Origin: a bacterium
GTDB taxonomy: Bacteria; Actinomycetota; Acidimicrobiia; Acidimicrobiales; Bin134
Direction: 5' to 3'
DNA length: 64,000 nt
Assembly: GCA_026705465.1 (NCBI GenBank)
Contig: JAPPAP010000004.1
Span: 146,337-210,336 of the forward strand
The translations under genes were made by a program, and so were the position numbers. Below the pieces are notes generated by a model. That model worked only from the letters and a program-made list of their open reading frames with translations, did no database searches and was not told where the DNA came from. Below are positions 45,339 to 51,658 of the stretch, piece after piece (the first letter of the stretch is position 1; every line of letters begins with the position of its first letter).

Positions 45339-46475
45339 ATGCGTACTGCGGTCACCGAGATGTTTGACATCGAGTTTCCGATCCTGGCCTTTACCCATTG
45401 CCGCGATGTGGCCGCCGAGGTCAGCCGAGCCGGCGGATTGGGTGTGCTGGGCGTTGTCGGACACACCGAGGACGATCTGGAAACCGACCTGGCCTGGATC
45501 CGGGAACAGGTCGGCGACCGTCCCTTCGGCGTCGATCTTGTCGTTCCCGCCCGCTACGAGGGTGTCGAACAGGGCGGACTGGACGTCGAGCAGGCCCACT
45601 CGCTCATCCCCGACGAGCACCGGCAATTTCTCGACGATTTGCTTGAGCGCTACGACGTGCCGCCACTGCCATCCGACGACGGCGACCCGCGGGACTGGGG
45701 TCCTGCCGCCCCGCTGTCGGGCCGCCGCGCCGGTCGCCAGCTCGAGATCGCCTTGGCCTACGAGCCTGCCCTGGTGGCCAACGCGCTAGGCCCGCCTCCC
45801 CCGGAGATGATCGCCCAGGGCCACGCTGCCGGAGCCAAGGTGGCCGCCCTGGCTGGCCGAGCCGCCCACGCCGAGCGCCATGTGGCCGCGGGCGTCGACC
45901 TCATTGTCGCTCAGGGATACGAGGCCGGCGGCCACACCGGGGAGGTGGGATCGATGGTGCTTATCCCCGAGGTGGTGGATGCGGTGGCACCGGTGCCGGT
46001 ACTGGGCGCCGGAGGCATCGGCCGAGGACGCCAAATGGCCGCAGCCATGGCACTGGGCGCCCAGGGGGCATGGTGTGGCTCAGTGTGGCTTACCACCGAG
46101 GAGGCTGAAACCCACCCCGCGGTCAAGCAGAAGTTCCTGGCTGCTGGATCGTCTGACACCGAGCGGTCCCGCACTATCACGGGCAAGCCAGCCCGGATGT
46201 TGCGCTCAGCCTGGACCGAGGAATGGAACCGGTCCGACACCCCCGACCCGCTGCCCATGCCCTTGCAGATCATGCTGACCGGTGAGCCCCGCCGCCGCAT
46301 CGACCGGGTGGCCCACCACCCCGGGAGCGGCGCCGAGAAGCTGACCAACTACTTCGTCGGCCAAATCGTGGGCTCCATGAATCAATCTCTCCCTGCCCGC
46401 CAAGTGGTCTACAACCTGGTTGAAGAGTTCATCGAGGCTGTCGAGGGCCTCACCGCTCAACTCGAAGACGGATAA
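45339..46475 (+). CDS. Nitronate monooxygenase family protein
   Basis: This 378-residue FMN TIM-barrel protein resembles nitronate monooxygenases and 2-nitropropane dioxygenases. It has the A-G-G-L-G-V-L-G start region, the phosphate-binding A-G-G-I-G-R-G and the motif V-A-Q-G-Y-E-A-G-G-H-T-G. A strong ribosome-binding site (AAAGGAAAA) precedes ATG 45339. The real substrate may be another oxidised small molecule. Its 3' end overlaps the convergent LOG-family gene by 19 bases. Confidence 0.9.
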   Translation: MRTAVTEMFDIEFPILAFTHCRDVAAEVSRAGGLGVLGVVGHTEDDLETDLAWIREQVGDRPFGVDLVVPARYEGVEQGGLDVEQAHSLIPDEHRQFLDDLLERYDVPPLPSDDGDPRDWGPAAPLSGRRAGRQLEIALAYEPALVANALGPPPPEMIAQGHAAGAKVAALAGRAAHAERHVAAGVDLIVAQGYEAGGHTGEVGSMVLIPEVVDAVAPVPVLGAGGIGRGRQMAAAMALGAQGAWCGSVWLTTEEAETHPAVKQKFLAAGSSDTERSRTITGKPARMLRSAWTEEWNRSDTPDPLPMPLQIMLTGEPRRRIDRVAHHPGSGAEKLTNYFVGQIVGSMNQSLPARQVVYNLVEEFIEAVEGLTAQLEDG

Positions 46476-47032
46476 AGCAGCTCCAAAGCCCTATCAATCG
46501 AAGCCGCCCGCCGAATGATCCCCGCCTTCTCCTGTTTCACAAACCCAAGCTCAATAATCTGATCAAAGAATCCAACTAACGGCTTCCAAAACCCGTCTTC
46601 GTCCAGCAAAACCACCGGCTTGAACCGACCACCCTCGTGAAGCCCCAGTTGTGTCCATGTGGCGGCCTCGAACAGCTCCTCCATCGTCCCCAATCCGCCG
46701 GGCAGCGCACAGAACCCGTCGGACAGCGAGTACATGAGCTGCTTGCGCTCGTGCATGTCGTTCACTAGGTGGAGCTCGGTCAGCCCCTGATGGGCTACTT
46801 CGATCTCGTCCAGGAAATTCGGAATTACCCCGATCACTTCGCCGCCCTCGGCCATGGCCGCGTCGGCGATAACCCCCATCAGTCCAATCCGGCCGCCGCC
46901 GAACACAACTCCAATCCCCTCGGCGGCCAGCCGTCGGCCCAATTCAGCTGCGAGCGCAGCGTGATTCGGCTCGGTGCCCAGCGACGAGCTGCAAAAAACC
47001 GCCACCCGCCGTTGCCCTTCTTCCAAAGTCAC
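46457..47032 (-). CDS. LOG family (TIGR00730) nucleotide-processing protein
   Basis: The 191-residue protein carries the P-G-G-L-G-T-M-E-E motif and the F-G-G-G-R-I-G-L-M-G block of the LOG family, whose members release free cytokinins from riboside monophosphates or hydrolyse related nucleotides. I use the GTG at 47032 because family members begin just before the R-V-A-V-F-C-S-S strand; a TTG at 47059 would add nine residues. In bacteria such as Mycobacterium the family makes cytokinins; the role here is not known. Confidence 0.88.
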   Translation of the reverse strand: MTLEEGQRRVAVFCSSSLGTEPNHAALAAELGRRLAAEGIGVVFGGGRIGLMGVIADAAMAEGGEVIGVIPNFLDEIEVAHQGLTELHLVNDMHERKQLMYSLSDGFCALPGGLGTMEELFEAATWTQLGLHEGGRFKPVVLLDEDGFWKPLVGFFDQIIELGFVKQEKAGIIRRAASIDRALELLYPSSS

Positions 47033-47143
47033 GAGAGTGAGGCTACCCACCCCCCTCAAATAAACGGGGACAAATTGATGCTAGTGGCAACGCCCAGGTC
47101 AGAGGCCAGATGAAGTGTCACACCCCCGTGAGATCATGACGAT

Positions 47144-47563
47144 ATGACGGAGACGAAAAAGACATCGAGCAAGCCCTATCGCCAAGACATGACGCTAGTC
47201 GAGCCTTTCGCCGGACCAATCGTGGTCGACGAGACTTGCGCTGTTGGTCGAACCAAGAGCAGAAACACCGGAGTCCGTCGTCAGCGCTCCTCAGGCTGTG
47301 GCTCGGTGGACAAGACCGCCATGGTCAGCGTGAAAGACGGGGTCAGCGACCGTGTGGCCACTACCTTGGTAATCAACGCCGATATGGCGACTCTTCAAAG
47401 TTTCGCCACGGACCACGCGGAAATGGACGCGATGATCTACGCCAACGATCACAAGGCATGTCGAGGACTGCCTCGTCACGCCACCGTCTGCCACTCAGTA
47501 TCCGAGGTCGACAAAAGCATGATTGGCCAGCGGTTCCAGCCCTCCAAGTTGGCTGCACCATGA
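47144..47563 (+). pseudogene. IS1595/ISXO2-type transposase remnant
   Basis: The 139-residue product matches the middle of an IS1595-family DDE transposase: G-P-I-V-V-D-E-T-C with the first catalytic Asp, K-T-A-M-V-S-V-K-D, R-V-A-T-T-L-V and an altered Y-A-N-D-H-K-A where Y-x-D-x-x-x-A-Y is expected. The N-terminal zinc-ribbon part and the C-terminal N-H-S-x-G-E-Y and E-S-F-W region are missing or replaced (H-S-V-S-E-V-D). With about 300 residues expected, it cannot transpose. No terminal inverted repeats were found. It stays open and overlaps the methyltransferase ATG by four bases, so it is read in the same operon. Confidence 0.75.
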
Positions 47564-48459
47564 GGCTGGCGTCCTTCTTTGCCGGAATTGGCGGTTTCGA
47601 TCTGGGATTTGAGCAGGCTGGCTGCTCGGTCGTGTTCCAATGCGAAATTGATCCCCATTGCCAGATGGTGCTGCGCCGCCACTGGCCCGACGTGCCTCTG
47701 CACGACGACATCACCACGCTGCAACCCGAAGGGATACCCGATGCCGACATATGGAGCGCAGGCTGGCCTTGCCAAGATGTCAGCTCAGCCAATGCTCAAC
47801 GAACAGGAATCAACGGAGAGCGAAGCGGACTGTTCTTCACTCTCATGGACTTGGCTGACCAAGTTCGCCCACAGTGGCTCCTTCTCGAAAATGTGCCGGG
47901 CCTCCTATCTGCCGATAAAGGCTCCGCTTTTGAAGCGGTTATCGACAGGCTTGAAGCGAGCGGGTATCTGGGGGGTTGGGCGACGTGCAACACTCTCGAC
48001 TTCGGCCTGCCCCAAGACCGAAAACGAGTTGTCATTGTCGCAAGTCTTGGAACCGACGGTGCCTATCAGGTCATTGCTGACTGCTGCGAATTGTTCGGGG
48101 ATCATCCGCAGGGAGGTGAAGAACAATCGAGAGGTCCCTCCACCGCTGCTGGCAGCGCTGGAGGAAACGATCCGATTGTGGTGCAACGTAGGGGAGGCTT
48201 CGGGTACACCCGAGGATCGAGTGTTTGCCCCACGCTACGTGCCCAAACCGGACGACATCAGGGAGGCCATTCAGACCGACCGATACTTTGTGGCACGCAA
48301 TTTGACGTGGAGAGAATGGGAGCGGCTGATGGGCTTTCCGGACGATTGGACGGTCGTAGAGGGCGACTGATAGGCAACGCTGTAGCTGTGCCTGTTGCAC
48401 AGTGGTTTGCCGAGAAGATCAGCGCCATACACCATGCCTCCCAGTCATGTAACGCCTAG
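47560..48459 (+). CDS. C5-cytosine DNA methyltransferase (possible frameshifts near 3' end)
   Basis: This 299-residue enzyme methylates cytosine C5 in a short DNA site. Motif I (F-A-G-I-G-G-F-D-L-G-F), motif IV with Cys71 (G-W-P-C-Q-D-V-S-S-A), motif VI (L-L-E-N-V), motif VIII (Q-D-R-K-R-V) and motif X (I-G-N-A-V-A-V-P-V-A) are in this frame, as is the target-recognition stretch G-G-F-G-Y-T-R-G with P-T-L-R-A-Q-T-G. Motif IX (L-T-W-R-E-W-E-R-L-M-G-F-P-D-D-W) instead lies in the next frame at 48302-48352, so two compensating frameshifts seem to have scrambled about 22 residues. The ATG 47560 overlaps the transposase remnant, and the 3' end overlaps the HNH gene. Confidence 0.88.
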   Translation: MRLASFFAGIGGFDLGFEQAGCSVVFQCEIDPHCQMVLRRHWPDVPLHDDITTLQPEGIPDADIWSAGWPCQDVSSANAQRTGINGERSGLFFTLMDLADQVRPQWLLLENVPGLLSADKGSAFEAVIDRLEASGYLGGWATCNTLDFGLPQDRKRVVIVASLGTDGAYQVIADCCELFGDHPQGGEEQSRGPSTAAGSAGGNDPIVVQRRGGFGYTRGSSVCPTLRAQTGRHQGGHSDRPILCGTQFDVERMGAADGLSGRLDGRRGRLIGNAVAVPVAQWFAEKISAIHHASQSCNA

Positions 48460-49180
48460 TCCGCATCCTCTCACGACATCACAGCGCGACAAAGAAATCG
48501 ACACAATCGTTCAAGGCTTCGTCACTAAGAGTCAGGCCAACCGCGACATTTATCGCGCGATCTTGGAGTGTGTGTTGCCGCTTGGGGCGGGGGTTCCAGG
48601 ACCGATTGTGGCTCGCGACGAATTGCGTCAAGCTGTCGAGAAGATCAAGCCAGGTTATAGAGATCCGTTTCGCCGTGTGCGAGAGCTTCAGGGTGAAGAG
48701 GGCTTGTCCGGACTAGTCAAAGACGGCAACAAGTACCAGTTGAAGTACACCGACATAGACGCGAAACGGGAACCGAGAAGAGCAGTGTCGCAACAAACGG
48801 TCCAGAAGTTGGTGCATAACCAGGGCGAACGGTGCACGGTATGCAGCAAAGAAATCAGTGCCGAAGACACCAGGATCGATGTGGATCACCGCGTTCCCCG
48901 TCTTCGCGGCGGTACCACCCACGAAACCAACCTGCAAGTGCTATGCAGGGAATGCAACATCGCCAAGTCCACTCAGTGCAATGGCTGCGACTTGATCTGC
49001 CGAACCTGTGGATGGGCACACCCTGAGAAACATCGACTGCTCAAGCTCGAACCCGAGTTGGTACTGCAGGTCAATAGGGAGGCCAGCAGATCCAAGAAGG
49101 AAACCCCCGATCAACTGGCAAACCGCCTCCTGAGCGAGTCTCTCGACCAACTACGGAGGAGTCTCCAGGACCAAGAGTGA
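48434..49180 (+). CDS. HNH nuclease, predicted restriction partner
   Basis: This 248-residue protein has a winged-helix-like N-terminal part (Y-R-A-I-L-E-C-V-L-P-L-G, then F-R-R-V-R-E-L) and an HNH module: Cys134/Cys137, the catalytic D-H-R at 151-153, N166, and Cys171/Cys174 with N-I-A-K. More Cys follow (182, 185, 189, 192) and may bind a second zinc. ATG 48434 overlaps the methyltransferase end by 26 bases. The placement makes it the likely restriction endonuclease of a type II system, which is inference from context and fold. Confidence 0.82.
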   Translation: MPPSHVTPSPHPLTTSQRDKEIDTIVQGFVTKSQANRDIYRAILECVLPLGAGVPGPIVARDELRQAVEKIKPGYRDPFRRVRELQGEEGLSGLVKDGNKYQLKYTDIDAKREPRRAVSQQTVQKLVHNQGERCTVCSKEISAEDTRIDVDHRVPRLRGGTTHETNLQVLCRECNIAKSTQCNGCDLICRTCGWAHPEKHRLLKLEPELVLQVNREASRSKKETPDQLANRLLSESLDQLRRSLQDQE

Positions 49181-49285: not shown

Positions 49286-49852
49286 TTAGTTGAGGCGGGT
49301 GACGGTGTCGCCGGTGTGGATGGTGCCGGGTTGGATGACGCGGGCGTTGATGCCCCGGAGATTGAGGGCTCGGCCGGCGGGGGAGTTGACGAAGCGGAGG
49401 GCGTCAAGGCCGAATCGGGCGGAGAACTTGCCGCAGCCGGTATGAGGTTCGGCGGTCACCTCGATGACGGCTTCGCCCATGGCAAGTTGGGTGCCAGCAG
49501 GAAGGGTTTCCAAGCTGATGTCCAGATCGACGTAAAGCTGATCACCAGCTAGGGCCCACCGTTCGATGGGTCCGGCTATCGCAGCAGCCGTGCGAGCGTT
49601 CATGATGTTGATCTGGGCATCAATCAGCGGCCCGCCGTCGGGTGTCTTGCTCGAGCCCCGCTGGTTCCAGGTGTCCCCGACCAGGCCCTCCTCCAAGCTG
49701 AGTTGGCCGGTCTCCAGCACCTCCCTCTCGTCCACCGCAGGGCGGCGAACGATCAACTCGAGGGTGCCGTGGTCGACAGGTGCTTGGCGGATGTGATCGA
49801 GGGCGGCTTCCAGTTCCTCGGGCGTGCGGTGTCGGGCCGAGTCTGCTGTCAT
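49286..49852 (-). CDS. MOSC domain protein
   Basis: This 188-residue protein has the MOSC (molybdenum cofactor sulfurase C-terminal) fold, with the conserved Cys in H-T-G-C-G-K-F-S-A-R-F-G and the downstream L-N-L-R-G-I-N-A-R-V motif. Stand-alone MOSC proteins handle sulfur for metal clusters or reduce N-hydroxylated compounds. Its start overlaps the stop of the carboxylase epsilon gene by ATGA, so it is the third gene of that operon. Confidence 0.87.
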   Translation of the reverse strand: MTADSARHRTPEELEAALDHIRQAPVDHGTLELIVRRPAVDEREVLETGQLSLEEGLVGDTWNQRGSSKTPDGGPLIDAQINIMNARTAAAIAGPIERWALAGDQLYVDLDISLETLPAGTQLAMGEAVIEVTAEPHTGCGKFSARFGLDALRFVNSPAGRALNLRGINARVIQPGTIHTGDTVTRLN

Positions 49853-50043
49853 CGCCTTAGGGATTGGCGTTGGCGGCGGGTCTTAGCGGGCTCAGTCCAC
49901 CAGCGGCCGCTGAACCGCCAGCGAGAGGCAGAGGGAGCAGAGGCCTCATCGATAACTGGCCGAGGCCAGAGGGCCTCGTAGGCGGCCAATATGGCAGCTA
50001 CCTCGGCATCGGTGGGCTGCGGGGAGATGGCGACGATGCTCAT
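49849..50043 (-). CDS. Acyl-CoA carboxylase epsilon subunit
   Basis: This 64-residue protein fits the small epsilon subunit that stabilises actinobacterial acetyl/propionyl-CoA carboxylases: a helix around P-T-D-A-E-V-A-A-I-L-A-A-Y and a short W-R-F-S-G-R-W end. The position 58 bases downstream of the beta subunit gene supports this. Epsilon subunits are poorly conserved, so context carries much of the call. Confidence 0.8.
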   Translation of the reverse strand: MSIVAISPQPTDAEVAAILAAYEALWPRPVIDEASAPSASRWRFSGRWWTEPAKTRRQRQSLRR

Positions 50044-50101
50044 TGCGCTGTTCTAACTGGTCCTATCTGCCCAGCCGGAATGATTTTCCCGAAGATCAGA
50101 A

Positions 50102-51658
50102 TCAAAGGGGGATGATTCCGTGCTTGCGGGGGAGCAGCTCTTCTCGTTTGGAACGCAGCATCTCGAAACCGGAGATCACCAGACGCCTAGTGTCGGCGGG
50201 GTCGATCACGTCATCGATGTAGCCCCGCTCGGCGGCGATGTAGGGGTTGGCGTAGCGCTCGGTGTAGTCGTCCACCAGTTCGGCCCTACGGGCGACTGGA
50301 TCGGCGGCCGACTGGAGTTCGCGGCGGTAGATGATCTCCACTGCCCCCTGCGGACCCATCACGGCCAGCTCAGCGCCCGGCCAGGCGAACGACAGGTCGG
50401 AGCCCACCGACTTGGAGTCCATCACCACGTAAGCCCCGCCGTAAGCCTTGCGGGTGATGACCTGGATGCGGGGCACGGTGGCCTCGCAATAGGCGTACAA
50501 CAGCTTGGCCCCGTGACGGATAATGCCGCCGTGTTCCTGGTCGACACCGGGCAAAAAGCCGGGCACGTCCACCAGGGTCAGCAACGGGATGTTGAAGGCG
50601 TCGCAGGTCCGTACAAACCGGGCCGCTTTGGACGATGATTCGATGTCCAGCACTCCGGCCAGCACCATCGGCTGATTGCCCACCACGCCTACGGTGTAAC
50701 CGTCGAGTCGGGCGAAGCCGCACACGATCGACTGGGCCCAGTGGGCGTGGTACTCCATGAACTCTCCGTCGTCCACCACTGCCTGGATCACCTGGCGCAT
50801 GTCGTAGGGGAGGTTGGGGCTGTCAGGCATGATGTCGCGCAGCTCGGGCGTGAGCCTCTCGGGGTCATCGGAGGCGTCGACCTGCGGAGGCTCCTCCAGG
50901 TTGTTGGGCGGAAGGTGGCTGATCAGGTAGCGGACCTCGTCAAGCACCTCCTCCTCGGTCTGACCCACGAACGTGGCCACACCTGATTTGGTGGAGTGCG
51001 AGCGGGCTCCACCCAGGTCCTCCAAGGTGACCTCTTCGCCGGTGACCGTCTTCACCACGTCGGGGCCGGTGATGAACATGTGGGATTTCTCGGCCACCAT
51101 GAAAACGAAATCGGTCATAGCCGGGCTGTACACCGCCCCGCCGGCGCACGGCCCCAGGATCACGCTGATCTGGGGGATGACGCCGGAAGACTTGACATTT
51201 CGGTGGAAGATGCCGCCGTAGGAGTCGAGCGACACCACCCCCTCTTGAATGCGGGCACCAGCGCCGTCGTTGAGGCCGATCATGGGGGCACCCACCGACA
51301 AGGCCAAGTCCATCACCTTGTGGATCTTCTCGGCGAACACTTCTCCCAGCGCACCGCCGAACACGGTGAAGTCTTGGGCGAACAGGAACACCTTGCGGCC
51401 GTCGATGGTGCCCCAGCCGGTGATCACGCCATCGGTGTAGGGCCGCTCTTCGATACCACTGTCCAGCGCCCGATGGCGGGCCAGCATGTCGAGCTCGTGG
51501 AAGGAGCCGTCGTCGAGCAGATACTCGATGCGCTCCCGGGCCAGCATCTTGCCCTTCTCGTGCTGGCGGTCGACCGCCCGCTGGGGGCCGGCGTGGAGGG
51601 CTTCGTGCTTGCGGCGCTCTAGGTCGTTGAGACGATCTTTCATCGAGTGCTCGGCCAT
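50102..51658 (-). CDS. Acyl-CoA (propionyl/acetyl-CoA) carboxylase beta subunit
   Basis: This 518-residue carboxyltransferase moves CO2 from biotin to acyl-CoA. The N-terminal half has G-A-G-A-R-I-Q-E-G-V and the oxyanion G-P-C-A-G-G-A-V-Y-S-P, and the C-terminal half has V-P-G-F-L-P-G and R-K-A-Y-G-G-A-Y-V-V-M. The residue after G-G-A-Y, Val here, is known to influence acetyl versus propionyl choice in Streptomyces enzymes (Asp or Ile there), so specificity is uncertain. A TAGCCT box ends nine bases before the ATG. The biotin-carrying alpha subunit is not in the window. Confidence 0.93.
   Translation of the reverse strand: MAEHSMKDRLNDLERRKHEALHAGPQRAVDRQHEKGKMLARERIEYLLDDGSFHELDMLARHRALDSGIEERPYTDGVITGWGTIDGRKVFLFAQDFTVFGGALGEVFAEKIHKVMDLALSVGAPMIGLNDGAGARIQEGVVSLDSYGGIFHRNVKSSGVIPQISVILGPCAGGAVYSPAMTDFVFMVAEKSHMFITGPDVVKTVTGEEVTLEDLGGARSHSTKSGVATFVGQTEEEVLDEVRYLISHLPPNNLEEPPQVDASDDPERLTPELRDIMPDSPNLPYDMRQVIQAVVDDGEFMEYHAHWAQSIVCGFARLDGYTVGVVGNQPMVLAGVLDIESSSKAARFVRTCDAFNIPLLTLVDVPGFLPGVDQEHGGIIRHGAKLLYAYCEATVPRIQVITRKAYGGAYVVMDSKSVGSDLSFAWPGAELAVMGPQGAVEIIYRRELQSAADPVARRAELVDDYTERYANPYIAAERGYIDDVIDPADTRRLVISGFEMLRSKREELLPRKHGIIPL

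Follow-up and report, generated by a model that had tools for sequence, protein, structure and literature searches.

What becomes of a C5-cytosine DNA methyltransferase whose reading frame lacks motif IX? The question is raised by three overlapping reading frames, a transposase remnant, a methyltransferase and an HNH nuclease, at positions 47144 to 49180 of a 64,000-nucleotide stretch of DNA (the window) from a bacterium of the order Acidimicrobiales. The missing motif lies in the +1 frame of the methyltransferase gene itself, at the end of an open reading frame (ORF) that is conserved together with the main frame. We call the main-frame methyltransferase product alpha and the +1-frame product beta. 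Our answer, which we consider probable, is that the locus encodes a compact type II restriction–modification (R-M) system, in which a two-chain alpha/beta C5 methyltransferase would be paired with an HNH restriction nuclease. The parts of the methyltransferase are these:

47560–48459, forward strand: alpha chain, C5-cytosine DNA methyltransferase, 299 amino acids (aa) (PF00145, motif scan, sister species G759, homologue L219)
48373–48393, forward strand: motif X (GNAVAVP), alpha frame (motif scan)
47891–48370, forward strand: predicted beta chain, 159 aa, +1 frame within alpha (identity to G759, wobble switch, stop deficit, L219)
48296–48352, forward strand: motif IX (RNLTWREWERLMGFPDDWT), beta frame (PF00145 profile positions 271–296 fit the +1 frame; motif scan)

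The alpha frame (ORF2) opens at the ATG at 47560. Its match to PF00145 is strong (E 8.6e-49) and confined to residues 1–162 of 299. The motif scan nevertheless recovers motifs I–VIII, a target recognition region and motif X from the same frame, with no motif IX, which sits exclusively in the +1 frame at the C terminus of beta. The +1 frame stays open from about 47579 to 48370, and beta probably starts at the ATG at 47891, the one closest to the point where the phase of substitution changes. Among relatives with every motif in a single frame, the closest, L007 and L047, are enzymes of the ordinary kind, and a DNA search of Escherichia coli genomes with the window's methyltransferase gene found no relative.

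Much of the evidence comes from a sister species of the window genome, G759, which was our partner for the substitution tests. Alpha is 92% identical there over all 299 residues, with no gap, and beta is 94% identical over 159 residues from the ATG at 47891. Across the methyltransferase gene, the two species differ by 68 substitutions, and these change phase along the way. Before 47850, 18 of 19 hit the third position of an alpha codon. From 47851 to 48290, 16 of 24 fall at alpha position 1, the wobble position of beta (Fisher P 1.6e-5 against the upstream part). Between 48085 and 48170, beta wobble accounts for 10 of 12, most of them silent in the +1 frame and residue-changing in alpha. Near motif IX several alpha residues differ in G759, and the core of the +1 motif is identical. 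Finally, alpha codons 101–269 contain no beta-frame stop, against 4.3 expected from synonymous shuffling (P 0.0035). Given this switch of phase, unchanged motif core and deficit of stops, selection appears to act on both frames.

The same split occurs far from Actinomycetota. We searched for alpha homologues in 321 genomes of the class to which a Gallionellaceae genome belongs and found a single full-length one, the gammaproteobacterial L219 (E 2.1e-64 for residues 2–291; 38% identity over residues 1–290). Its motif IX is also confined to the +1 frame, inside an ORF of 160 residues whose ATG stands at the position equivalent to that of the window's beta, in motif ENV. Beta-frame stops number none against 5.7 expected. 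The neighbouring protein in L219 has no clear Pfam or Protein Data Bank match and so offers no specificity to borrow.

A methyltransferase made in two pieces has precedents. The small chain of M.EcoHK31I is reportedly also read from an alternative frame inside the gene of the large one. The window's alpha has motifs I–VIII and X without IX, and its motif IX lies, at the level of sequence, on a second, smaller polypeptide, the 159-codon +1 ORF. M.EcoHK31I is partitioned in just this way: its large chain carries motifs I–VIII, X and the target-recognition domain, and its small chain only motif IX (PMC3404938). Because the two partitions agree, we infer an alpha/beta heterodimer. Alpha would bring the catalytic core together with motif X and the target-recognition region; beta, translated from the +1 frame, would add motif IX along with a helical hairpin that is conserved; and the two would join as a single active enzyme, in the manner of M.EcoHK31I. 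Copies of the same site left unmodified would then be cut by the HNH protein, and translation of alpha may be coupled to the upstream transposase remnant through an ATGA overlap.

What, then, of the nuclease? Its gene (ORF3) begins at the ATG at 48434 and divides as follows:

48434–49180, forward strand: putative restriction endonuclease, 248 aa, with an N-terminal winged-helix-like region, an HNH domain and an extra Cys cluster (PF01844, PADLOC)
48833–48973, forward strand: HNH domain, residues 134–180, with zinc-type CxxC pairs (PF01844)
48977–49009, forward strand: extra Cys cluster C-x2-C-x3-C-x2-C, residues 182–192 (G759 alignment)

The protein matches PF01844 (E 7.5e-10) and the PADLOC model REase_II PDLC03478 (E 6.9e-13), and its gene is under purifying selection against G759 (dN/dS 0.27). 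Methyltransferase and nuclease genes lie side by side at one site in the window and in G759, the adjacency and joint inheritance of a type II R-M system. Relatives of the nuclease with the same winged-helix-like N terminus and HNH domain stand beside C5 methyltransferases at three loci (L004, L015 and L017), which supports, without proving, a restriction role. Most other HNH matches are Cas9-like or stand-alone HNH proteins. The original prediction had proposed a type II R-M pair, a proposal that would have suffered had HNH homologues been found only without methyltransferases; the three loci, the retention of both genes in two species and the dN/dS all speak for it. It had also called the layout of the nuclease unusual. 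The winged-helix-like segment and HNH turn out to be common to the relatives; the extra Cys cluster, retained in G759, was compared between the two sister species only. Two observations stand apart. In two genomes (L015 and L017), a Vsr-like gene is clustered with the HNH relative and the C5 methyltransferase, and in genomes of the window's own order (L013 and L016) the HNH matches fall within long open frames, about 1100 residues each, whose translations look Cas9-like.

Is the hidden gene peculiar to this locus? Searches with tblastn gave +1-frame matches in plasmids and phages. These might have been a by-product of alpha homology, an explanation we rejected since codon-level tests gave real constraint. 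We aligned 68 C5 methyltransferases by codon: an alpha-frame query and the 67 sequences that it found on viral contigs. Synonymous codon identity in this alignment is 1.0–1.3 times the expected value along most of the gene, 2.2–2.8 times at reference residues 151–210 and about 1.1 times from residue 211. At residues 181–195 the differences by codon position are 0.45, 0.12 and 0.15, the signature of a +1 frame. Stops in that frame are frequent as far as column 55 and become so again at about column 217; the block between has 31 where 208 are expected, and each of its columns has stops in at most 10% of the sequences, up to a common stop at 217–218. A different C5 methyltransferase family, our control, is without the signal, its third-position differences staying at about 0.7 through most of the gene, with one 20-residue block of raised synonymous identity.

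These phage methyltransferases are otherwise ordinary. Among 74 phage loci examined, none has the +1 protein without a methyltransferase frame, and both frames are open in all. No family was found for the +1 proteins among five scanned against Pfam or 69 scanned against NCBIfam, and PHROG_16143 matches 67 of the 69. AlphaFold predicts a confident C-terminal helical hairpin for the phage protein (pLDDT about 95) with a poorly predicted N terminus, and the window's beta shows the same hairpin; Foldseek with the phage protein returned nothing significant. At L054, L056–L135 and P1 dmt (L276), we see a conserved +1 gene of about 155 codons with the peptide ..SLSDILETGxVPxRYFLSxxACxGILRRAEKRGKxLP..; P1 dmt has 53% identity in the +1 frame, where no gene is annotated.

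A second group of genes resembles the window's methyltransferase more closely, in that motif IX is on beta. PHROG_1008 matches five loci (L280–L284), from genomes of the same class as the L219 search, at each of which a +1 ORF overlaps a methyltransferase frame and has an ending like motif IX. One of these PHROG_1008-type proteins, used to scan viral sequences, gave at least 598 relatives, and we kept 80 (L285–L364). These hold 68 distinct alpha genes: PCQ is present in 67 and a recognisable motif X in 56, and a recognisable motif IX is in the alpha frame of none. Over the 68 genes, beta-frame stops number 0 against 295 expected. Motif VI reads ENS, not ENV, in most of the alpha frames. Many of the +1 proteins at L280–L284 and L285–L364 end in LNPxWVEWLMGWPxGW. 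On one phage contig (L325), a single open frame contains both the beta motif (LNPDWVEWLMGW) and LKAIGNGQCP, which resembles motif X, and the -1 frame is closed; this may be a fused form or an error in the frame.

In some phage records both frames are annotated, for example as 'DNA-cytosine methyltransferase (x2)', so gene callers have already seen these ORFs. In the open-licence literature, we found no published description or explanation of the overlapping +1-frame class or of its breadth. Both groups are seen at the level of sequence only. That beta carries motif IX in the second group suggests that it binds alpha. We lean towards a wider claim: that +1 genes overlapping C5 methyltransferase genes make up a general class, so far mostly unrecognised, in both phages and bacteria, that many ordinary phage C5 methyltransferases (P1 Dmt among them) have a conserved beta as their partner and that a large subclass, to which the window belongs, has motif IX on beta and is obligately two-chain.

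Decay and assembly error were our first hypotheses for the split gene, and both were dropped after the comparison with the sister species. In the first, a decaying methyltransferase gene has expelled motif IX through two compensating frameshifts and the +1 frame goes unread. A degenerate transposase fragment does lie next door, and alpha does not read well as a methyltransferase in the stretch bounded by the two phase changes. Against this, the sister species has identical frames and no indels, the core of motif IX stays constant while alpha changes, the wobble switches, and the same split recurs in a homologue of another phylum and in 68 phage genes, all of which makes decay quite improbable. 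Errors of sequencing or assembly might be suspected in an assembly of 40 contigs, with both phase changes near short homopolymers; they are scarcely credible when the same frames appear in a separate species with 68 differing positions across the gene, and again in L219. On this comparison the split is neither decay nor assembly error, because G759 keeps the same two-frame arrangement without indels. Very improbable, too, is a single chain made by two programmed ribosomal frameshifts, from alpha to beta and back to alpha. Such a chain would take in motif IX and restore the canonical order of motifs. It would also need two shifts, and we identified no slippery site, without having searched systematically. 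Moreover, beta is conserved far upstream of motif IX, over alpha motifs VI–VIII, where a frameshifted chain would be left without its catalytic core.

More serious, although still unlikely, is the suggestion of a solitary methyltransferase with an unrelated HNH gene next to it. The HNH domain also resembles those of IscB, Cas9 and PtuB, and many HNH relatives are not adjacent to methyltransferases. Set against this are the retention of both genes, with overlapping ends, in two species, the purifying selection on the HNH gene and the C5 methyltransferases that adjoin relatives of the same layout. Several points weigh against the two-chain R-M system we favour. There is no obvious ribosome-binding site at the proposed beta start. 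The substitution test in the window draws on one sister species, and divergence is low in places. The likeness to M.EcoHK31I is one of motif partition. And the partners of this HNH family elsewhere are ordinary single-frame methyltransferases (those at L004, L015 and L017 appear so on reading their sequences), the partnership in the window being drawn from gene order and conservation. The frames, the partition of motifs and the conservation of both frames are there in the DNA; from them, we infer that beta is translated, that the heterodimer assembles and is active and that the nuclease restricts.

The remaining frame (ORF1) lies upstream:

47144–47563, forward strand: degenerate IS1595/ISXO2-type transposase fragment, 139 aa (PF12762, NF033547, G759)

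It matches PF12762, the IS1595 DDE domain, at E 1.8e-5, below the curated cut-off, and NF033547 at E 7.8e-7. We found no second copy in its own genome. In G759 the fragment is 58% identical with the same ends. The original prediction described a piece truncated at both ends that keeps one catalytic Asp; the truncation is real, and that Asp, the first, is gone in G759, the second being substituted in both species. Nor could we establish that the piece is retained as a leader or small protein. Its substitutions are spread almost evenly over codon positions (34/35/39; dN/dS 0.53), and the frame stays open in 14% of trials with the same substitutions placed at random (P about 0.14). Its stop overlaps the methyltransferase start as ATGA, a conserved junction, and a leader for coupled translation is therefore possible, if unproven.

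The overlaps of 4 bases (ORF1/ORF2) and 26 bases (ORF2/ORF3), which the same prediction had reported, were reproduced, and frames and overlaps are all retained in G759, at the equivalent place by a LOG-type gene (46457–47059, minus strand), so the arrangement is not chance. The norm in the genus is for the LOG gene to adjoin an acyl-CoA carboxylase gene directly, and in 14 genus genomes, within the stretch fetched, the two are adjacent with nothing between. The search for the same gene order in other genomes, which the prediction had proposed, thus found the three genes at this site in the window and G759 alone within the genus. The G+C content of the locus is 57% against 64% for the window, as expected for an acquired island in this 3.1-Mb genome. 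Beyond the locus, a block of carboxylase, small ORF and MOSC genes (window 49286–51658) is inverted relative to G759 and other genus members. Overall, the R-M pairing of the earlier reading is supported and its retained transposase leader is not established, and it overlooked both the missing motif IX and the +1 gene.

With standard annotation the locus would pass for one methyltransferase, labelled truncated, or its second gene would go unnoticed. Should beta prove to be a genuine subunit, many methyltransferases of phages and bacteria carry the wrong annotation, alpha cloned alone would yield an inactive enzyme and synonymous recoding would break the hidden gene. The class also offers a large prokaryotic set of overlapping coding sequences in which to study the origin and maintenance of a second frame.

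How does the locus compare with what is known? ORF1 shares the DDE domain of IS1595/ISXO2 transposases and differs in being truncated at both ends, with catalytic Asp residues substituted and a single genomic copy, whereas a functional IS1595 transposase has an intact DDE and a full-length domain. The nuclease resembles HNH type II restriction endonucleases (PADLOC REase_II PDLC03478) in its HNH with zinc-type Cys pairs adjoining a C5 methyltransferase; it differs in the extra Cys cluster, examined in the sister species only. PHROG_1008 and PHROG_16143, both named as phage 'DNA methyltransferase', match +1 ORFs that overlap C5 methyltransferases. The window's beta is shorter, matches PHROG_16143 weakly (E 0.074) and PHROG_1008 not at all at E up to 1, yet it ends in motif IX as PHROG_1008-type proteins do. 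M.AquI is a split C5 methyltransferase, naturally of two chains (PMC3404938), that parts motifs I–VIII from IX–X, whereas in the window motif X remains on alpha. M.EcoHK31I (YGGCCR) shares the motif partition, with IX alone on the smaller chain; the window's system differs in belonging to Actinomycetota and in being paired with an HNH nuclease.
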